Assembly (NCBI GenBank): GCA_016188005.1
Contig: JACPIQ010000109.1
Span: 1-49,441 of the forward strand
DNA: 49,441 nt
Source: Candidatus Rokuibacteriota bacterium
GTDB lineage: Bacteria; Methylomirabilota; Methylomirabilia; Rokubacteriales; CSP1-6
Direction: 5' to 3'
Position numbers and translations under genes: made by a program. A model generated the notes under the pieces. The model saw only the letters and a list, made by a program, of their open reading frames with translations. It was not told the DNA's origin and did no database searches. Below are positions 13,714 to 27,104 of the stretch, one piece after another (the first letter of the stretch is position 1; every line of letters starts with the position of its first letter).

Positions 13714-15285
13714 TCAGGCCGGGCCGGCGGCGAGGACCTCCCAGACTTTCTGCGCCAGGGCGAGAGGCGTGAAGGGCTTGGAGAGGAAGGCGGCACCAGG
13801 GTCGAGGATGCCGTGGCGCTCGACGGCGTCCGGCGCATACCCCGACACGTAGAGCACCCGGAGGCCGGGGCGCGTCCGCCCGACCGCCGCGGCCAGCTCC
13901 CGGCCGCTCATCCGTGGCATCACGACGTCCGCGACGAGGAGATGGAGGAGGCCGGGCGCCGCCGCCAGGGCCAGGGCCTCCTCGGGGCCGCGGGCGTCGA
14001 GGACGGTGTAGCCGTGGGCCTCGAGGGCCTCGCGGGTGAGGGCGCGGACGTCCTCGTCGTCCTCGACCAGCAGGATGGTCTCGGAGCCGCGCGGGCGCTC
14101 GGGGGGATGCTCGACGGACGCCGGCACGGCCACGGCGTCCTCGGCGCGCGGGAGATAAACCTTGAAGGTGGTGCCCCGGCCCGGCTCGCTGTAGACCCAG
14201 ATGGTGCCGCCGCTCTGGCTGACCACGCCATGCACGGTGGCCAGCCCGAGACCTGTCCCCCGTTCCTTCGTCGTGAAGAAGGGCTCGAAGATCCTGGCCC
14301 GCGTGGCCTCGTCCATCCCCGACCCGGTGTCGCTCACGGCCAGCATCACGTGCTGCCCCGGGCGGGCACCCGCGTGCCGGTGCGCATACCTCTCGTCCAG
14401 CTCCGCGTTGGCGGTCTCGATGGTGAGCCGCCCGACCCCCGGCATCGCGTCGCGCGCGTTGATCACGAGGTTGAGGAGCACCTGCTCGATCTGGCTGGGG
14501 TCGGCCAGGACGCGCCCGAGCCCGGGGTCCAGCGTGATCGACAGCTCCAGGTCCTCACCGATCACGCGCCTGAGCATCGGCCCGAGCCCGCTCACCACCG
14601 TGTTGAGGTCCAGCACCTGGGGCCGGAGGACCTGGCGGCGGCTCACCGCCAGCAGCTGCTGCGTCAGCGCCGCCGCCCGCCGGCCGGTGGCCTGGATGAG
14701 CTCGACGTCCCGCCGCGCCGGCCCCTCGGTCACGAGCCGGCGCAGCAAGAGCTCGGTCCGCCCGAGGATCACCGTCAGCAGGTTGTTGAAGTCGTGGGCA
14801 ATCCCTCCGGCCAGGCGGCCCACCGCCTCCATCTTCTGGGACTGGAGGAACTGCTGCTCGAGCTGCTTGCGCTCGGTCAGGTCGAACAGCGTCACGAGCG
14901 TCGCGGGCCGGTCGTCCCAGGTGGTCAGCGAGATCACCCCCTCGATCCACGCGCGGGCCCCGTCCCGCCGCAGGCCCTGGAACTCGTAGTGGGAGGGCAC
15001 CGGCTCCCCGCGGAGCCGCGCGAGGTTATAGGCCTCGAGGCGAGCCTGCTCCTCCGGAGCCACGAGCGTGAGCACGTTGCGCCCGATCAGCTCCGCCGGG
15101 CTGTCGTGGCCGAAGATTCGGGCCAGGGCCGGGTTGGCGAAGCGGATGACGAAGTCCTGGTGGATCGCGATCCCCTGGATAGAGCCGTCGACCAGGCCGC
15201 GGTACCGCGCCTCGCTCTCACGGAGCGCCCGGAGCGCTTGCTCGAGTGTCCCGGAGGCCGGCGCGGCGCTCTCGATGCTACCCAC
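13714..15285 (-). CDS. PAS-domain hybrid histidine kinase with C-terminal receiver
   Basis: A 523-residue soluble sensor kinase. An N-terminal PAS domain (about 20-140; SEARYRGLVDGSIQGIAIHQ) precedes a DHp domain with the phospho-accepting His in [14 protein letters not shown]. An HATPase domain follows (N box NLVINARDAM, G1 SDTGSGMDE, TTKERGTGLGLA). A receiver domain at the C-terminus carries VVEDDED-type acidic residues, DVVMPRMSG and the KPF lysine. No membrane segment is present, so it acts in the cytoplasm, probably receiving or relaying phosphate inside the locus. The GTG at 15285 overlaps the preceding gene by 8 bp; the longer ATG reading to 15387 duplicates the upstream receiver in the wrong frame. 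It is the last gene of the signalling operon. Confidence 0.88.
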   Translation of the reverse strand: MGSIESAAPASGTLEQALRALRESEARYRGLVDGSIQGIAIHQDFVIRFANPALARIFGHDSPAELIGRNVLTLVAPEEQARLEAYNLARLRGEPVPSHYEFQGLRRDGARAWIEGVISLTTWDDRPATLVTLFDLTERKQLEQQFLQSQKMEAVGRLAGGIAHDFNNLLTVILGRTELLLRRLVTEGPARRDVELIQATGRRAAALTQQLLAVSRRQVLRPQVLDLNTVVSGLGPMLRRVIGEDLELSITLDPGLGRVLADPSQIEQVLLNLVINARDAMPGVGRLTIETANAELDERYAHRHAGARPGQHVMLAVSDTGSGMDEATRARIFEPFFTTKERGTGLGLATVHGVVSQSGGTIWVYSEPGRGTTFKVYLPRAEDAVAVPASVEHPPERPRGSETILLVEDDEDVRALTREALEAHGYTVLDARGPEEALALAAAPGLLHLLVADVVMPRMSGRELAAAVGRTRPGLRVLYVSGYAPDAVERHGILDPGAAFLSKPFTPLALAQKVWEVLAAGPA

Positions 15286-15862
15286 GGGCCGCCCTCGGGG
15301 AGAGCGCCGCCAGCACGGCCAGGAGGCGGTCCAGGTCGATGGGCTTGGTGAGGAAGGCATCCACCGCAGGCGCTCCGGGGTCCGCATCCTCCGGCCCCAT
15401 GGCGCCGGACATGACGACGACGCGGCAGCGGGGATTCCGGTGCCGCGCGGCGCGCGCGATCACCCACCCGTGCTCCTCCGGGAGAACCAGGTCGGTGAGG
15501 ACCACCTGGAAGGTCTGCTGGGTCAGCGCCTCGAACGCCGAGGCGGTGTCGCCGACCACACGCACGTTCCAGCCCTCGGCGCCGAGCAATTCCTCCAGCA
15601 GCGCGCCGAACACCCGGTCGTCCTCGACCACCAGCACCGCGGGGGGCGCCGCCTCTGCGGCCGGGGATAGCGTCAGCAGTCCCTCGACGTGCACGATGGC
15701 CTCGCGGGCGACCTCCCGGAGCGACAGCAGGCCCTCGCGGAGGTTGGCGGTGTCGAGCGTCCCTCCGTCCAGCCGGGCGAGCATGGCGTCCGCCTGCCCG
15801 AGGAGCGCCGCCAGGACGTTCCGGAAGTCGCGGGCGATGCCAGCCGCCGCCGCCTCAGGCAT
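15278..15862 (-). CDS. Degenerate DHp fused to a receiver domain (194 aa)
   Basis: The C-terminal 120 residues form a receiver domain: VLVVEDDRVFG (acidic pocket), LTDLVLPEEHG (phospho-Asp), VVVMSGAMG and FLTKPIDL (Lys). The N-terminal 75 residues read GIARDFRNVLAALLGQADAM, aligning with the [15 protein letters not shown] DHp motif of the neighbouring kinase but with Arg replacing the phosphorylated His. No ATPase domain is present. It is thus a dimerising pseudo-kinase helix pair attached to a receiver, perhaps a phosphate sink or adaptor between the two flanking kinases. Its ATG overlaps the upstream kinase stop by 8 bp and its end overlaps the next gene, so the three proteins are made together. 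Confidence 0.75.
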   Translation of the reverse strand: MPEAAAAGIARDFRNVLAALLGQADAMLARLDGGTLDTANLREGLLSLREVAREAIVHVEGLLTLSPAAEAAPPAVLVVEDDRVFGALLEELLGAEGWNVRVVGDTASAFEALTQQTFQVVLTDLVLPEEHGWVIARAARHRNPRCRVVVMSGAMGPEDADPGAPAVDAFLTKPIDLDRLLAVLAALSPRAARG

Positions 15863-17780
15863 CCCCGGGCTCCGTGGCGCGCTCGCTCAGGAGCGGGAGC
15901 AGGATCCGGAAGGTCGTGCCCCGGCCGGGGGTGCTCCTGAAGCTGATGGCGCCGCCATGGTCCTCGACGACCTTGTGGGTGAGGACGAGCCCCAAGCCCG
16001 TGCCGCTGGCCTTCGTCGTGAAGAAGGGATCGAACACCTTGTCGGCGTCGAGCGTCGAGATGCCGCAGCCGGTGTCCTCGATTTCGATCCGGAGCCGACG
16101 CGCCATCCGGCCGCGCGGGACGGCGCCGAAGGGGTCCGGCCCGTGATGCCACCCCGTGCGGACCGTTAGCCGGCCCCCCGACTCCATGGCCTCGAGCGCA
16201 TTGGCCACCAGGTTCACGAAGGCCCGGTAGAGCAGGTCGGGGTCAGCCGGGACAGCCGGGACGTCCCGCGCGTACTCCCGCGCCACCGCGACGTGCCGGC
16301 TCTCGAGCTCGTGGCTGTAGAGATCGAGCACGCGGTCGAGGAGGACCGGGACGACCACGGCCTGCAGGTGCAGCCGCGAGGGGCGGGCCAGGTCGAGGAG
16401 CTGCTCGACGATCTCGTTGATCCGCTCGAGCTCCCGCGACACCACCTCCTCGAAGGAGCGCCGGAAGCCCGCGTCGTCGAACTTCCGCGAGAGGTGGCGC
16501 GTGAAGGTCCGCAGCGAGGTGAGCGGGTTCTTGATCTCGTGGGCGAGGCCCGCGGCGAGCGTGCCGAGCGCGGCGAGGCGGTCCGAGCGGCGGAGCTGCG
16601 CCTCCAGCTCGCGGACGACCGTGACGTCGCCGAAGACGCCGACGACGCCGAGGTCCTTGCCCTCCACGCCACGCAGCGGCGCCGTGCTCATCTCCACGGG
16701 AAGCGTGCCCCCGTTCGGGCGCCGGAGCGTCAGCGAGAGGTTGGTCGTCCCGTAGCGGCTTCCCAGCGTCTCGAGCAGAGTCTCGCCGATCTCGGGCGTG
16801 TGGACGAACACCTCGGTGGCGTAGCGGCCGATGACCTCCCCGGCGAAGAGCCCCGTGAGCATCTCGGCCGCAGGGTTCAGCGTCGCCACGCGCCCGTCGA
16901 GGTCGAGGGTGACGATGCCGCTCGTGAGCGAGGCGAAGATGCTGTCCGTGTAGCTCTTGAGGTCGGCCAGCTCCGCGAAGCGGCGGCTGAGCTCGGTGTG
17001 GGTCGTCTCGAGGTCCCTCCGCTGGTGGAGGAGCTGGGCCGCCATGTCGTTGAACGCGACGGCGAGCTGGCCGATCTCGTCGAAGCCGGGCGGCGCGATG
17101 CGCTGGTCGAGGTCGCCCCGCGAGATGGCCTCCGCGCCGGCTGCGAGCTGGCGGACGGGCCGGGCGATGCGCCGGGCCACGAGGGCGGCCACGAGCCCGC
17201 CGAGGAGGAGCGTCAGCACGCTCAGCCCCGCCAGCTCCCATCGGGTGCGGCTGATCTGAGCCTCCATCCGGCGCTTGGACAGCCCGACGCGGATGGTGCC
17301 CCATTTCTGCGCCGAGACCAGCACCGGGACGGCGAAGTCGTAGACCGCCGCGCGGCCCTTGCCGCGCGGGATCTCCTGGATGAAGAGGTTCTCCGCCCCG
17401 GCGGCGCGCCGGTCCGCCGCTCCGGCGAGGGGGGCGCCCACGAGCCCCGCGTTCCGGCTGTGGGCGGCCACGGCCCCCTCGGCGTCGAGCACCATCGCGT
17501 ACACCACGTCGTGACTGGCGCTCACGCGGGCCACGTTCTGCTCCAGTGCCGTGAAGTTGTAGAGGAGGAGCGGGCCGGAGGAGATCGCCGCCAGGTCGCG
17601 CGCGATGACCTCGCCCCGCCGGAGCACCTCGTCCACGATGGCGGCGTGCTGGCGATGCTCCACCACGACGAACACCCCCGCCATGACCACGAGCAGGACC
17701 AGGACGGTGCCCACCAGGAACCGGGCCTGGAGCGAGCGCGGCCGCAGCCCCCGGCGCCGCGCCCGAAGATCGTCCCTCAC
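15855..17780 (-). CDS. Membrane histidine kinase (sensor-HAMP-PAS-HisKA-HATPase)
   Basis: A 641-residue kinase of the NtrB/AtoS type. TM1 is near 18-42 (FLVGTVLVLLVVMAGVFVVV). A periplasmic domain of about 145 residues follows, then TM2 near 190-210, HAMP (ARRIARPVRQLAAGAEAISR), PAS (about 285-400), DHp with His in GLAHEIKNPLTSLRTF, and HATPase with N box NLVANALEAM, DTGCGIS and TTKASGTGLGL. It starts with a GTG that overlaps the stop of the binding-protein gene (GTGA), strong evidence that sensor and binding protein form one functional unit. NtrB-type kinases usually pair with NtrC-type activators, and such an activator gene lies 2.1 kb upstream in the same orientation. Confidence 0.88.
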   Translation of the reverse strand: MRDDLRARRRGLRPRSLQARFLVGTVLVLLVVMAGVFVVVEHRQHAAIVDEVLRRGEVIARDLAAISSGPLLLYNFTALEQNVARVSASHDVVYAMVLDAEGAVAAHSRNAGLVGAPLAGAADRRAAGAENLFIQEIPRGKGRAAVYDFAVPVLVSAQKWGTIRVGLSKRRMEAQISRTRWELAGLSVLTLLLGGLVAALVARRIARPVRQLAAGAEAISRGDLDQRIAPPGFDEIGQLAVAFNDMAAQLLHQRRDLETTHTELSRRFAELADLKSYTDSIFASLTSGIVTLDLDGRVATLNPAAEMLTGLFAGEVIGRYATEVFVHTPEIGETLLETLGSRYGTTNLSLTLRRPNGGTLPVEMSTAPLRGVEGKDLGVVGVFGDVTVVRELEAQLRRSDRLAALGTLAAGLAHEIKNPLTSLRTFTRHLSRKFDDAGFRRSFEEVVSRELERINEIVEQLLDLARPSRLHLQAVVVPVLLDRVLDLYSHELESRHVAVAREYARDVPAVPADPDLLYRAFVNLVANALEAMESGGRLTVRTGWHHGPDPFGAVPRGRMARRLRIEIEDTGCGISTLDADKVFDPFFTTKASGTGLGLVLTHKVVEDHGGAISFRSTPGRGTTFRILLPLLSERATEPGDA

Positions 17781-19429
17781 CGCCGCCCCTCCAGCCAGAT
17801 CTTCCTGAGCGGGATGTAGGGATCCCCGAGCCCATTCACCTCCACGCTCTTCACGTAGGGCTGGAAGAGCCGCTCGTAGGTGTAATGCCAGACCGGAATG
17901 ACGGGGGCGTCGTCGAGGATGCGCTGCTCGGCCCGCCGGTAGAGGTCGATGCGCCGAGAGAGGTCCGGCTCGTGCCGGGCCTCGCGCAGCAGATCGTCCA
18001 CCACCGGGTTGGCGTAGCCCGTGAGGCTGCGGGGGGTCCGCGAGTGGAAGAGCTTGAACAGGAAGTTGTCCGGGTCGGGCACATCGGCGTACCAGGCATA
18101 GAGGAACATGGGGAAGCGCCCCTCGGCCAGCCCGCGGGAGAAGGAGGGCCACCCGGTGTCGTAGTGGATCTCCAGCGGGATTCCCACCGTGGCGAGCTGC
18201 CGCTTCACGACCTCCAGCTCCCGCTCGATGCGCTCCCCCTTGACGCTCGACCAGATGGCGATGGGGCCGAGCCCGCGCCCTTCCGGATACCCGGCCTCCC
18301 GCAGGAGCGCCCGGGCCCGCGCGGGCGAATGAGGGATCGCGCGGAGCTGCGGGTTGTGCCCGGGCATGCCCGGCGGAAGGATGCCGCGCGCCGGCTGGTA
18401 CCGCCCGAGGAAGATCTCCTGGAGGATACGCTCCCGGTCGACCGCATAGGCAATGGCCTGGCGCACGCGTGGGTCCGCCAGAGGGCGGAGGCGCGTGTTG
18501 AAGCCATAGAAGCGCACGCTGAAGGTCGACCGGCGGACGTACTGGTAGCGGGGGTCTCCCGCCTTGCTGCGGCAGGGCGGAGGCACCGGGCTCTCCTCGA
18601 GCCCGCCCTGCTCGAACTCGCGACAGATGAGATCGCTCGACTCGCCCGGAAAGATCCGGTACACGATGCGCGACAGCCGCGGCGGACCATCCCAGTACTC
18701 CGCGTTGGCCCCCAGGACGATCTCCTTCCCGCGCTCCCAGCGGAGGAACCTGAAGGGGCCCGTACCCACGGGGTGGACGCCGAAGCCCTCGCCCTGCTCC
18801 CCCACGAGCTCCCGCGGGACGATCTTGGCGTGGCCCAGGGCCAGCACGGACACGAAGGGCGCCTGCGTCTCGCTGAGCGTGACCCGCACCGTGTGCCGAT
18901 CCACGGCGACCAGGCCGGAGACTTGCCGGGCGCGGCCCTCCCGGAAGGCCTGCGCCCCCTCGATCCCCGCGAAGCTGTCGGCCGCGCCAGACCGGGTTCT
19001 CGGATCCAGGATGCGCGTGAGCGAGTAGACCACGTCCTCCGCCGTCACCTCGCGGCCGTGGTGGAACTTGACCCCCTGGCGCAGCGTGAAGGTCCACGTG
19101 AGGCCGTCGCGTGAGGCCTTCCAGTAGCGGGCGAGCGCCGGAGTGATGGTGAGGGTCTGGTCGAACCGGACGAGGCCGTCAAAGATCTGCTCGGCCACGG
19201 AGCGGCCATAGATGTCGCTGATGCGCACCGGATCGAGCGTCGGGGGATCGTTGCCGAGGGGACGCCGATAGAGGGCTCCCCCCGGCGCCGGCGCAGGGGG
19301 CTCCGGCCTCTCCTGGGCCACGACGGCGACTGAGAGGGCGCCGGAGAGGGTCAGCACGGCGACGAGGAGCAAAGGGGGGCCGAAGCCCCCCTTTCTCGTG
19401 ACCGGGCAGCGGATCCCATCCCAGTCCAT
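17777..19429 (-). CDS. Family 5 extracellular solute-binding protein (DppA/OppA type)
   Basis: A 550-residue oligopeptide- or dipeptide-type binding protein. A charged N-region (VTRKGG) and hydrophobic core (LLLVAVLTLSGALSVAVVAQ) act as signal peptide. The mature part shows the SBP_bac_5 segments DPPTLDPVRISDIYG, WKASRDGLTWTFTLRQGVKF, VGTGPFRFLRWERGKEI, FGYN-like RFYGFNTRLRPLADPRVRQA and IPVWHYTYER. No peptide permease or ATPase is nearby; the next gene, overlapping by 4 bp, is a membrane histidine kinase. This suggests a sensing role, with the binding protein presenting a ligand to the kinase rather than feeding an importer. A stable UUCG-type hairpin lies within the signal-peptide codons. 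ATG 19429 has a weak ribosome-binding site. Confidence 0.85.
   Translation of the reverse strand: MDWDGIRCPVTRKGGFGPPLLLVAVLTLSGALSVAVVAQERPEPPAPAPGGALYRRPLGNDPPTLDPVRISDIYGRSVAEQIFDGLVRFDQTLTITPALARYWKASRDGLTWTFTLRQGVKFHHGREVTAEDVVYSLTRILDPRTRSGAADSFAGIEGAQAFREGRARQVSGLVAVDRHTVRVTLSETQAPFVSVLALGHAKIVPRELVGEQGEGFGVHPVGTGPFRFLRWERGKEIVLGANAEYWDGPPRLSRIVYRIFPGESSDLICREFEQGGLEESPVPPPCRSKAGDPRYQYVRRSTFSVRFYGFNTRLRPLADPRVRQAIAYAVDRERILQEIFLGRYQPARGILPPGMPGHNPQLRAIPHSPARARALLREAGYPEGRGLGPIAIWSSVKGERIERELEVVKRQLATVGIPLEIHYDTGWPSFSRGLAEGRFPMFLYAWYADVPDPDNFLFKLFHSRTPRSLTGYANPVVDDLLREARHEPDLSRRIDLYRRAEQRILDDAPVIPVWHYTYERLFQPYVKSVEVNGLGDPYIPLRKIWLEGRR
19371..19394 (-). other. 10-bp stem with UUCG tetraloop in leader of binding-protein gene
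   Basis: On the minus strand AAAGGGGGGC-TTCG-GCCCCCCTTT is a perfect 10-bp stem closed by C(UUCG)G, an exceptionally stable RNA hairpin. It lies 57 bp after the stop of the 45-residue peptide ORF and within codons 12-20 of the binding-protein gene. It could terminate or attenuate transcription after the peptide ORF, protect the short mRNA's 3' end, or set the expression ratio. The following T-run is only three bases, so intrinsic termination would be partial. Confidence 0.6.
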
Positions 19430-19450
19430 CCGCGAGCGATTTCGACTCAG

Positions 19451-19588
19451 CTAGTCACCGCCTCCACCACCGTCGGCGTTGCCGATGGCAACGAACACCT
19501 GAGTCGACTCTGAGGTCCCCGACTCGATCACGGGGGCCGCCAGCAGGAACGACGCGAGCACGAGCAGCACCGCCCAGATCCTGGTCAT
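19451..19588 (-). CDS. Exported 45-residue Gly-rich peptide (novel)
   Basis: This short ORF encodes MTRIWAVLLVLASFLLAA followed by PVIESGTSESTQ and VFVAIGNADGGGGGD. The first 18 residues are a textbook signal peptide (Arg3, hydrophobic core, Ala-x-Ala-like end); the mature part would be about 27 acidic, Gly-terminated residues. The ribosome-binding site AGGGGAGG lies 8 bp before the ATG, the strongest in this locus. A sigma-54 promoter-like element lies 71-85 bp upstream, and the next gene, 21 bp downstream, is a peptide-type binding protein. I recognise no family. It may be a secreted signal, a pheromone-like peptide or a regulatory leader peptide. Its reality rests on the ribosome-binding site, signal peptide and context. 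Confidence 0.6.
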   Translation of the reverse strand: MTRIWAVLLVLASFLLAAPVIESGTSESTQVFVAIGNADGGGGGD

Positions 19589-19658
19589 CGCTCTTCCTCC
19601 CCTGATGTAGGAATCGCCTTGTGGGCTTCACCATGAGGCCCATGGCGGAGGAGAGGGA

Positions 19659-19673
19659 GCAAGAACGCGGCCA
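19659..19673 (-). promoter_or_regulatory. Sigma-54 promoter-like -24/-12 element
   Basis: The minus strand reads TGGCCGCGTTCTTGC, fitting TGGCNNNNNNNTTGC with the essential GG and GC exactly 10 bp apart and followed by T. Transcription would start near 19647 and give a 5' leader of about 60 bases before the 45-residue ORF. An NtrC-family activator gene with the GAFTGA loop lies immediately upstream. Confidence 0.55.
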
Positions 19674-19840
19674 GCGAGCGACGCGATCCCGGCTGCGCTA
19701 ACTCATTGATTCTCCCGACGACCGTCCGAGGGCCCCGACGACTCGCCGGGAGCCCCATTGACCGCAAGGCTGTGCAGTCCCCTGGACCGGCGCCCCGCGC
19801 ATCGCCACAATCGATAAGCGCGACAGGGGCTTGGCGCACG

Positions 19841-19879
19841 TGCACAGGATCCTGGGCAGGCTGCACAGATCCCTGTGCA
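19841..19879. promoter_or_regulatory. Paired palindromic activator sites (UAS)
   Basis: TGCACAGATCCCTGTGCA (19862-19879) is a perfect 7-bp inverted repeat with a 4-bp spacer. TGCACAGGATCCTGGGCA (19841-19858) is the same palindrome with one mismatch. Their centres are 21 bp apart, two helical turns, so two activator dimers could bind one face. They lie about 190-230 bp upstream of the predicted sigma-54 start, the usual distance for enhancer-binding proteins, and 3 bp after the activator gene stop. They resemble NtrC-type TGCAC(N)GTGCA sites. Confidence 0.6.
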
Positions 19880-19881
19880 CC

Positions 19882-21330
19882 CTAGGCCTCACTCCCCGGC
19901 CGCCTGAGGCTCCACTTGGCGACCTTCAGCTGGAGGGTGTTGCGGTGGATGCCCAGGAGACGGGCCGCCTCGGTGTGGTTCCAGCCGGCGCGCTCGAGGA
20001 CCCGCAGCACGATCTGCCGCTCGAAGCGCTCGCACGCCTCCGGCAGCGGCAGGCTCTCGGTCTCGCGGGAGCGGGCGCCATGATCGGGGAGCATGAGATC
20101 CAGCGGGAGGTCCCTCAGCTGGATCACGGGCCCCTCCGCGAGGGCCACCGAGCGCTCGATGACGTTCTGCAGCTCGCGCACGTTGCCCGGCCAGCCGTAC
20201 CCCTCGAGGGCCGTCTGGGCCTCGGGGGAAAGGGCGGTGACCGGCTTGTTGAACTCCCGGCTGTAGCGGCGGATGAAGTGGGTCACCAGGAGCGGGACGT
20301 CGCCGGGCCGCCCCCGGAGCGGCGGGGCCACGAGCGGCACCACGTTGAGCCGGTAGTAGAGGTCCTCCCTGAAGGCGCCCGCGGCGATGGCCTTGCGGAG
20401 ATCGGCATTGGTGGCCGCGATGATGCGGACGTCCACCTTGATGCTGCGCGTGCCGCCGACGCGCTCGATCTCCCGCTCCTGCAGCGCCCGGAGGAGCTTG
20501 GCCTGGGCCTCCGCCCGGAGCGTGGCGATCTCGTCGAGGAACAGCGTGCCCCCCTGGGCCAGCTCGAACTTCCCGAGCTTCCGCTGATAGGCGCCCGTGA
20601 AGGCCCCGCGCTCGTGACCGAACAGCTCCGACTCCAGCAGGCTCTCGGCGATGGCGGCGGGGTTCACGGCCACGAAGGGCCGGTCCCGGCGCGGGCTCCG
20701 GCGGTGGATCGCGCGGGCGATCAGCTCCTTGCCGGTGCCGCTCTCCCCGGTGATCAGGACGGTGGCGGTGGTGCGCGCGACCTGGTCAACGACCTGGAAG
20801 AGCTTCCGCATCTCGGGCGACTGGCCCACGAGCGCCTCCGGGCCCTCCCGCCGGGCCAGCTCGGATCGCAGCGCCACCACCTCGCGCTCGAGCGTCCGCT
20901 TCTCGACGGCCCGCCGGATCAGAGGGAGGACCTCCTCCTGGTCGAACGGCTTGGTGAGGTAGTCCAGGGCGCCGAGCTTCATGGCGTCCACGGCGGTCTT
21001 GACGGTCTTCACGGCGGTGACCAGGATCACGTCGAGCCGCTCGTCGAGCGACCGGATCCGCTCGAGCACCTGGAGCCCGTCCATCCCCGGCAGCCGGACG
21101 TCCAGGAGGACGAGGTCCACCGGATCGGCGCGGAGAGTCTCGAGCGCCTGCACACCGTCCCGGGCCTCGAGGACGTCGTACTCCTCCTCGAGGATCAGGC
21201 GGAAGGACGCCCGCACTCCCGGGTCGTCGTCCACCACGAGGACGACGGAGCGGGGGCCGCGGACGGCCTCGGACGGCTCGCCGGCGAGGGGCTGGAGCAG
21301 GCCGTCGCGGGAATCGCCCGGCGCGTCCAC
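19882..21330 (-). CDS. NtrC-family sigma-54-dependent response regulator
   Basis: A 482-residue enhancer-binding protein. The receiver domain (about 29-145) has VLVVDDDPG, phospho-Asp in LLDVRLPG (D77) and Lys in TKPFD. The AAA+ domain has Walker A GESGTGKE (195-202), the sigma-54-contacting GAFTGA loop (242-247), LFLDEIATL and the GYGWPGNVRELQN region. A C-terminal Fis-type helix-turn-helix contains EAARLLGIHRNTLQLK. It activates sigma-54 RNA polymerase after phosphorylation. The GTG start lies 7 bp after the upstream M15-like gene. The paired palindromes just beyond its stop and the promoter-like element are its likely targets; the NtrB-like kinase encoded downstream is its likely partner. 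Confidence 0.93.
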   Translation of the reverse strand: MDAPGDSRDGLLQPLAGEPSEAVRGPRSVVLVVDDDPGVRASFRLILEEEYDVLEARDGVQALETLRADPVDLVLLDVRLPGMDGLQVLERIRSLDERLDVILVTAVKTVKTAVDAMKLGALDYLTKPFDQEEVLPLIRRAVEKRTLEREVVALRSELARREGPEALVGQSPEMRKLFQVVDQVARTTATVLITGESGTGKELIARAIHRRSPRRDRPFVAVNPAAIAESLLESELFGHERGAFTGAYQRKLGKFELAQGGTLFLDEIATLRAEAQAKLLRALQEREIERVGGTRSIKVDVRIIAATNADLRKAIAAGAFREDLYYRLNVVPLVAPPLRGRPGDVPLLVTHFIRRYSREFNKPVTALSPEAQTALEGYGWPGNVRELQNVIERSVALAEGPVIQLRDLPLDLMLPDHGARSRETESLPLPEACERFERQIVLRVLERAGWNHTEAARLLGIHRNTLQLKVAKWSLRRPGSEA

Positions 21331-21337
21331 GGGGCCG

Positions 21338-22129
21338 CTAGCGGCGCGCGGTGATCCGGCGTGAGGGCTGGCCGATGTGAACGTGGGCGCCCGTGGCCTC
21401 GCCGGCCACCGCCCGCCGGAAGGCGAGGAAGGGGATGCCCGCGCTGCGGAGGTAGTCCATCAGCCCCTGGCCCTCCGCGCTGTCGGGGTGCACCGCGACG
21501 TCAATGGCATCGCGGTGGTCGAAGCCGATGCGGTTGTGCGCCGCCGTCTGGCCGAACGCGCTGATGGGCAGCGGCTGGCCGAACCGGGCCACGAAGAAGC
21601 GCTGGATCTTCGCGGTATCCGCGAGCCCCCAGCGTGCGGAGCCGTTGAAGCGGATGAGGGTCGGGGTGGCGAAGTAGCCGCCGCTGGCCAGCGGGGGCAG
21701 CTTGGCGACCTGCTCGCTCACCTCCGCCTCGAGCAGGATCCGGTCGGCCTCGACGATCCAGCGCCGCGTCTCGGCCGCCTTCGCCTCGGCCTCGGCCAGC
21801 AGCCCTTCGCTCACCTCGAGCTCGCGCTGGGAGATGACGTCCCGACCGCGCAGCTCGCGCCGCAGCTCCACCAGCTCCGACAGGGTTGCCACGTCGCGCT
21901 GGTAGATCTCCAGCAGCCTCTCCAGGCTCGCGCGGTACTCGCGCGTCGTCCGGACCACGTCGGCGCTGAGCTTCTCGAGGTCGGCGGCGCGCTCTCCGCC
22001 CTGGCCGCGGGGAACCTGGATGGCGGGCCGGCCGTCCGGCGCGACCCGGCTCTGCGCAGGGGCGGGTGACGCGGCACAGGCCAGCGCGAGCGCCAGCATG
22101 ATGGGTGAGACCCGGAGATACGCGCTCAT
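21338..22129 (-). CDS. Exported coiled-coil protein with M15-peptidase-like C-terminal domain
   Basis: A 263-residue exported protein. The signal peptide is about 1-25 (VSPIMLALALACAASPAPAQ). A helical, probably coiled-coil region (45-140) follows, then a C-terminal domain with NRIGFDHRDAIDVAV and TGAHVHIG. The H205-x4-D210 and H249-x-H251 pattern is that of zinc D-Ala-D-Ala carboxypeptidases/endolysins of family M15, where these residues hold the metal. It may trim peptidoglycan peptides, or possibly process an exported peptide. The ATG at 22129 was chosen over 22270 because the upstream residues precede a clear signal peptide and are low in content. It is directly followed by the sigma-54 activator, suggesting co-expression. 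Confidence 0.65.
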   Translation of the reverse strand: MSAYLRVSPIMLALALACAASPAPAQSRVAPDGRPAIQVPRGQGGERAADLEKLSADVVRTTREYRASLERLLEIYQRDVATLSELVELRRELRGRDVISQRELEVSEGLLAEAEAKAAETRRWIVEADRILLEAEVSEQVAKLPPLASGGYFATPTLIRFNGSARWGLADTAKIQRFFVARFGQPLPISAFGQTAAHNRIGFDHRDAIDVAVHPDSAEGQGLMDYLRSAGIPFLAFRRAVAGEATGAHVHIGQPSRRITARR

Positions 22130-22221
22130 GGGTCGCGCCCCGATTGTAGCCCGGAAGGCGCCCCGGTGTCCCGATTCCCGTCGCCCCACCCCGGGCCCCA
22201 CCCTCCTCCCCGCGGTCGGGA

Positions 22222-22620
22222 TCAGACGCGGATGTCGACGACGATCTCGCGCTCCCGCGGGCCGTCGCACTCGACCAGCGCGATGCCCTGCCAGGTGCCG
22301 AGGAGGAGCCGCCCGCCCCGGATCGGCACGGTCTCCGAGGGGCCGAGGAGCGCGGCCTTCAGGTGGGCGGCGCCGTTGTCGTCGACCTTGTCGTGCTCCC
22401 AGATCCCCTGGGGGAAGAGGCGGTCGAGCGCCGTCAGCACATCGGCGCGGAAGCCGGGGTCGGCATTCTCATTGATGATGATCGCGGCCGTGGCGTGACG
22501 GACGAAGACGGTGCAGATCCCCTCCTCCCCCCCCGCCCGCGCCACCACCTCGGCCACGCGGCGCGTGATGTCCATCACCTCGTGGCACTCGCGCGTGCTG
22601 ATCCTGAAGGAGTCCTGCAT
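22222..22620 (-). CDS. yjbQ: UPF0047 family protein YjbQ
   Basis: A 132-residue protein with the YjbQ/UPF0047 pattern: GICTVFVRHATAAIIINENAD, a central WEHDKVDDNGAAHLKAALLG and a GTWQGIALVECDGPRER strand, in normal order and length. E. coli YjbQ has weak thiamine-phosphate-synthase-like activity in vivo; the true role is not settled. ATG 22620 follows a GGGAGGAGGGGGAGAG ribosome-binding region and is preferred to the upstream in-frame codon at 22638. It is an independent housekeeping-type gene between two signalling genes. Confidence 0.92.
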   Translation of the reverse strand: MQDSFRISTRECHEVMDITRRVAEVVARAGGEEGICTVFVRHATAAIIINENADPGFRADVLTALDRLFPQGIWEHDKVDDNGAAHLKAALLGPSETVPIRGGRLLLGTWQGIALVECDGPREREIVVDIRV

Positions 22621-22670
22621 CTCTCCCCCTCCTCCCACGCTCTATCGGGCCGGGAGCGTGGATCTCCAGT

Positions 22671-26999
<4,329 letters not shown>

Positions 27000-27104
27000 G
27001 GTCTGGTAATGGCCTCCGGCCCACTCACGCAATGGGAGTGCCAGAGGACAACTACCTGGAAATCCTGGACGCCCCGGCCGAGTGCCGGCCATGCCGTGAC
27101 AGGA

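Follow-up and report, generated by a model that had tools for sequence, protein, structure and literature searches.

In the PrgZ/cCF10 and Opp/Phr systems of Gram-positive bacteria, a small exported peptide precursor is matched by a receptor of the SBP_bac_5 family, and this solute-binding protein (SBP) feeds import to a cytoplasmic regulator. Binding-protein-assisted kinases, such as LuxP-LuxQ, ChvE-VirA and TorT-TorS, are a second class of parallels; their ligands are sugars or other small molecules. To our knowledge, no case of peptide signalling by way of a binding protein and a kinase has been established for Gram-negative bacteria; how the Rokubacteria, which are widespread uncultured bacteria of soil and groundwater, sense or communicate with each other is likewise poorly known. 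For peptide-receptor pairs of the agr and ComRS kind, coevolution of ComS and ComR is documented (PMC8605241). In Vibrio cholerae, the small periplasmic protein DbfQ, which has a cleaved signal peptide, directly binds the kinase DbfS (PMC12714742).

The rokubacterial locus described here resembles each of these systems and departs from each. Like PrgZ/cCF10 and Opp/Phr, it encodes a small, putatively exported peptide precursor and an SBP_bac_5 receptor, PrgZ (4faj) being among the sequence matches of its SBP; unlike there, a kinase follows the SBP, no BPD_transp_1 permease lies among the scanned neighbours, SBP and peptide form a putative pair, and the lineage is regarded as Gram-negative. As in agr and ComRS, the peptide adjoins the sensor, the receptor diverges between conserved flanks, and the peptide's tail is associated with the receptor among congeners; the two-component logic is that of agr. 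By way of difference, no AgrB-like protease was noticed nearby, the tail core is near-constant, the sensor is a separate binding protein and control appears to be by sigma-54. With DbfQRS, to which it is likened by description and not by sequence, the locus shares a small and presumably exported product encoded beside kinase and regulator, but it has an SBP and a sigma-54 activator in addition. SBP and kinase are encoded together, with the SBP as presumed sensor, as in LuxP-LuxQ, ChvE-VirA and TorT-TorS; here, however, the SBP belongs to the peptide family, and the first product that the operon encodes is a peptide. Literature searches, with partial coverage of the literature, returned no report of a micropeptide-SBP-kinase system.

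The window, that is, the whole stretch of DNA analysed (49,441 nt), is an entire contig (C109) from a 5.4-Mb genome. Its genes of interest all lie on the minus strand:

19882..21330, minus strand: NtrC-type response regulator with receiver, sigma-54 activator and Fis-type HTH domains (Pfam), immediately 5' of the micropeptide gene in nearly all homologous loci
19594..19600, minus strand: Shine-Dalgarno sequence GGGGAGG, about 6 nt 5' of the micropeptide ATG and visible in homologues too
19451..19588, minus strand (read 19588→19451): micropeptide gene, 45 codons plus stop, ATG start and TAG stop; product MTRIWAVLLVLASFLLAAPVIESGTSESTQVFVAIGNADGGGGGD, with a hydrophobic anchor or signal (residues 4-21) and a predicted extracytoplasmic tail (residues 22-45; example tail peptide STQVFVAIGNADGGGGGD)
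17777..19429, minus strand: SBP of the SBP_bac_5 family, DppA-like and peptide-type (Pfam E 6e-89), beginning 21 nt past the micropeptide gene; start coordinate tentative
15855..17780, minus strand: histidine kinase, sCache_3_2-HAMP-PAS-HisKA-HATPase (Pfam), start deduced from the frame
15278..15862, minus strand: receiver-domain protein (Pfam), overlapping the kinase stop

The sequence-only reading had proposed an unrecognised gene for a short exported peptide, preceded by a clear ribosome-binding site and placed directly before a peptide-type binding protein, and had named intact frames, synonymous excess and conserved synteny in relatives as the way to check it; comparison bears it out on all of these points. 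It gave no strand (on the plus strand, the frame across 19451-19588 is interrupted by a stop), nor did it mention the promoter for sigma-54, the enhancer-like palindromes, either of the two RNA hairpins or the setting beside kinase and regulator. A profile search found homologues of the micropeptide in 47 of 95 Methylomirabilota genomes, in a single copy each except for G036 with two. The 48 collected copies are 40-48 residues long. They open with M-x-K and a hydrophobic segment, continue with P-x-x-E and an S/T-rich link, and have F-x-x-[IV]-G-x-A-[DE] ahead of a G-rich end. The frames are intact across the 47 genomes, the homologues hold the same place in the same operon, and of the 1128 pairwise comparisons, which are not independent, 1119 show more synonymous than non-synonymous difference (pS > pN; medians 0.54 versus 0.22); between the congeneric micropeptides of G000 and G002, the values are 0.22 and 0.08. 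Homologues in 47/95 genomes, their constant operon position and the excess of pS over pN together put the ORF far beyond chance, and on these comparative grounds it is a real gene, previously unnamed, from Rokubacteria and kin. Purifying selection acts more strongly on the tail half, where pN is 0.17, than on the anchor half, where it is 0.32. The Gly-rich, acidic C-terminus that had first drawn attention is present, yet no other part of the tail is conserved so poorly; conservation centres on a core, F-x-x-[IV]-G-x-A-[DE].

The same data bear on the idea that what is conserved is an RNA, structured and sigma-54-dependent, to which the ORF is incidental. Strong covariation of a hairpin in the 5'UTR and the presence of another past the stop codon would suit such an RNA, but the synonymous-biased change, the intact frames and the conservation of Shine-Dalgarno sequence and residues largely refute it, and we regard it as highly improbable.

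None of the 28 members scanned against Pfam and NCBIfam gave a match above the curated cut-off; weak matches were scattered, with one or two members each. In a pattern scan of named genomes, only records of Ca. Rokubacteria/Rokuibacteriota matched, and the degenerate pattern used would miss divergent relatives. It is also open to doubt that the gene would escape normal gene calling for its shortness, since its 138 nt exceed Prodigal's usual minimum of 90 nt.

In essentially all loci the gene order is NtrC-type regulator, micropeptide, SBP and kinase. The GTG start of the kinase at 17780 overlaps the SBP stop, and the receiver-domain protein at 15278..15862 is a probable further member of the operon. 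Since none of the neighbouring ORFs scanned, which include a branched-chain amino acid transporter, encodes a peptide-type BPD_transp_1 permease, the SBP looks like a dedicated sensor. With an orthologue defined by an E-value under 1e-120, genomes that have the SBP also carry the micropeptide, with three exceptions: in G001 and G027 the contig starts at the SBP, and in G064 an apparent transposase precedes it. Conversely, micropeptides lacking an SBP match were seen in loci that run off the contig end; G032 has neither, its regulator orthologue lying at a contig end, and several genera as well as a Methylomirabilis-like family lack both. Assembly breaks aside, micropeptide and SBP orthologue thus co-occur in the genomes compared.

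Some features of the surroundings are recorded here for completeness. In L037 and L051 an insertion of 2.7-3 kb separates regulator and micropeptide, and L051 lacks the usual sigma-54 site. The second copy of the system in G036 (L043) has extra SBP fragments between SBP and kinase, which suggests a duplicated SBP. Adjoining the regulator in the window is a conserved 310-aa ORF (21338-22270) lacking a Pfam match and 86% identical in G002; 22671-27092 encodes a hybrid histidine kinase with CHASE-GAF(x4) domains, 1473 aa long. Most Rokubacteria genomes contain a paralogous NtrC-type regulator (about 60% identical), adjoined by no SBP or kinase of this type in the genomes examined; the G000 copy (G000:C14:49049-50473, L174) was reported by the search with an in-frame TAG. 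A fusion of micropeptide and SBP by readthrough or frameshifting was considered and rejected because the frame of the SBP relative to the micropeptide varies among loci.

The elements that probably govern expression of the operon lie between regulator and SBP:

19862..19879, minus strand: enhancer-like palindrome 1, TGCACAGGGATCTGTGCA, the best match in the 5.4-Mb genome
19841..19858, minus strand: enhancer-like palindrome 2, TGCCCAGGATCCTGTGCA
19658..19673, minus strand: putative sigma-54 (-24/-12) promoter, TGGCCGCGTTCTTGCT, the window's only exact consensus match
19621..19643, minus strand: 5'UTR hairpin with pentaloop AUGGU, beginning a few nt past the inferred transcription start (about 19647)
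19371..19394, minus strand: GC-rich hairpin, AAAGGGGGGCTTCGGCCCCCCTTT, past the micropeptide stop and inside the 5' end of the SBP frame

About 0.4 exact sigma-54 consensus matches are expected by chance in the window, and sigma-54-like sites are situated 75-132 nt 5' of the ATG in 47 of the 48 micropeptide copies. The palindrome of the window reads TGCACAG-N4-CTGTGCA; many loci have upstream palindromes, with other motifs in other lineages. A search of 57 genomes for the promoter followed by the hairpin sequence returned 24 matches, of which 22 fall at this locus; with the pattern reversed, as a control, there were 2. Judged by the -24/-12 promoter, the upstream palindromes and the adjacent activator, the micropeptide gene appears to be sigma-54-dependent and of the NtrC-activated type. 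Near the genome's other palindrome clusters (on C4, C112 and C115) no sigma-54 site is convincing, and a clear regulon did not emerge from them.

Across relatives the 5' hairpin has nine base pairs in its stem and, nearly without variation, the loop AUGG(G/U). In 34 distinct sequences all nine pairs covary, with changes on both sides, and no slid version of the stem comes close; 92.5% of the pair cells are canonical versus 75.6% in shuffles, a share which is inflated by the preselection of the sequences for pairing of at least 6/9. Rokubacteriales have this form of the hairpin, and the outer orders that were examined lack it. In the window, mismatches interrupt the stem, which folds no better than shuffles, and Rfam returned no match for positions 15000-23000 of the window at E up to 1. 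Two other interpretations were discarded: a CsrA-type hairpin, the loop being AUGGU in several members and lacking GGA, and pairing of a promoter-proximal pyrimidine run with the Shine-Dalgarno sequence, as that run lies mostly upstream of the inferred transcription start.

At 36 of 46 loci the GC-rich hairpin outperforms 57 or more of 60 mononucleotide shuffles, and at the outer-genome locus L114 it ends with a T run like an intrinsic terminator; it is a candidate attenuator or 3'-stabiliser. The hairpin sits in the signal-peptide codons of the SBP, and no ATG or GTG was seen before it in L121 and L127, which makes the assigned SBP start tentative. From the two hairpins that bound the micropeptide gene we infer that its transcript is short and structured and that transcription runs on into SBP and kinase at a reduced level.

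Such an arrangement, with the micropeptide as first gene past a sigma-54 promoter and bounding hairpins that suggest high and separate expression, would also be expected if the micropeptide were a mere output, secreted or held in the membrane, which is made once SBP, kinase and regulator have sensed a peptide and has no sensing role itself; SBP_bac_5 proteins, moreover, usually bind outside ligands. This is nevertheless rather unlikely, as the gene is always beside the SBP in one copy per genome (two in G036), was not found under other promoters or away from the SBP-kinase-regulator system, and no other clear target of the regulator was found, the remaining palindrome clusters being those without a convincing sigma-54 site.

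The binding pocket of the SBP offers some indication of its ligand. D449 aligns with D408 of DppA, the residue by which the amino group of the peptide is held there, and Asp is kept at this position in 37/37 filled rows; S395 aligns with R355, which clamps the dipeptide carboxylate in DppA, and is S, G, A or T in all aligned orthologues, Arg being absent (the DppA numbering was checked via the 53-residue spacing). The SBP_bac_5 domain and the Asp suggest a peptide-binding protein of the DppA/OppA family, and the missing Arg355 clamp argues against a dipeptide-specific DppA; retention of the one residue and absence of the other would fit a protein that binds peptides of more than two residues.

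Of the proteins compared, the SBP is the one that diverges. Kinase and regulator identities correlate across pairs (rho 0.90), and the SBP follows more loosely (0.62-0.66); among congeners, mean identity reaches 88% in the regulator and 83% in the kinase but 73% in the SBP, which falls below the kinase in 38 of 40 pairs. In G000/G002, G078/G081, G017/G034 and G010/G084, the synonymous difference of the SBP is 0.46-0.53 versus 0.17-0.33 in flanking genes; so high a value between conserved flanks suggests allele replacement over fast protein change. Relative to G002, the window is about 93% identical in the regulator and 96% in the first half of the micropeptide; identity drops to 74% over the tail and is for the most part lower still across the SBP. 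Divergence thus starts inside the micropeptide, and resemblance to G001 returns near 17900, at the SBP end. The trees place the window with G002 for the regulator (100/100), with G001 for the kinase (100) and with G025 for the SBP (98/95), and the tail of G025 is nearly identical (IFVAIGNAEGGGGGD versus VFVAIGNADGGGGGD). AU tests do not reject vertical descent of the SBP (p=0.083 for G000/G002, p=0.056 for G078/G081), which leaves repeated replacement of the SBP among congeners, between conserved regulator and kinase, likely but unproven, with fast local divergence as the alternative.

The two halves of the micropeptide relate differently to these neighbours. Among 50 congeneric pairs, tail identity follows the SBP after accounting for the regulator, and not the regulator (partial 0.48, within-genus permutation p=0.003), whereas the anchor half follows the regulator and not the SBP (partial 0.53, p=0.003). 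Over all 790 pairs the tie to the SBP after the regulator is 0.38 for the tail and 0.40 for the anchor half, so that the tail-specific difference vanishes, and in G017/G034 the SBP diverges with no tail-specific change. The tail is also nearer the SBP than the anchor half is, and physical linkage alone could yield the association. On account of this linkage and of the result over all pairs, the tracking of the SBP by the tail is graded as suggestive.

How the tail is displayed bears on its role. That the product begins with a hydrophobic segment agrees with the signal peptide seen by the sequence-only reading; that it is cleaved does not follow. The uncharged segment measures 18 residues in 35 and 22 residues in 11 of the 48 homologues, AxA motifs are rare (3/48), and the Ala that looks likeliest as a cleavage site is followed by Pro in nearly every homologue, on which grounds a non-cleaved N-in/C-out anchor appears as likely as a cleaved signal peptide. 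No peptidase site is consistent across the 48 homologues, and hence no released peptide is defined; an AlphaFold model has a confident anchor helix and a low-confidence tail. The tail may be either tethered or released.

These properties would also suit a small bitopic inner-membrane protein acting on the membrane or sCache domain of the kinase, as feedback inhibitor or activator, with the SBP sensing external peptides independently. Segment length, scarce AxA motifs, the Pro after Ala, the high-confidence anchor helix and the single copy within a kinase operon are in its favour, and DbfQ acting on DbfS is a precedent (PMC12714742). We nonetheless hold it to be unlikely: the tail is the more conserved half, and congeneric tails track the SBP rather than the regulator, while the regulator tracks the kinase.

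The explanation we prefer, although we put it somewhat below an even chance, is that the exported tail is a dedicated partner of the SBP, a tethered or released ligand, in a self-inducing two-component system, of which the micropeptide would be the first gene in a sigma-54-controlled sensory operon. The NtrC-type regulator would bind the palindromes 5' of the -24/-12 promoter and switch on the short structured micropeptide transcript; the hairpin past the micropeptide stop would pass only part of transcription, or a less stable RNA, into SBP and kinase, and such partial continuation is proposed to leave the peptide in excess over its receptor. The hydrophobic half would place the tail of about 22 residues in the periplasm, the DppA-like SBP would bind the tail or a processed piece and present it to the sCache kinase, and the kinase would phosphorylate the regulator and so close a positive feedback, the tail being either a peptide autoinducer or a tethered reference ligand. 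Against this explanation stands the near-constancy of the tail core beside an SBP that differs by a third, since a pheromone pair is expected to diversify together.

A bolder version would make the micropeptide a peptide autoinducer of a Gram-negative candidate phylum, sigma-54-driven and relayed through its dedicated SBP and the kinase, with tail and receptor swapped as a specificity cassette by recombination whose breakpoint falls inside the micropeptide gene. We consider it doubtful.

The micropeptide family, its control and its genomic context are well supported. In its 5'UTR the locus has a hairpin that covaries strongly, keeps its loop almost unchanged and matched nothing in Rfam when the window was searched. 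It also supplies a defined peptide, receptor, kinase, regulator and promoter, which could be rebuilt in E. coli. For Rokubacteria, it may be that the micropeptide is a signal that the cell itself senses.
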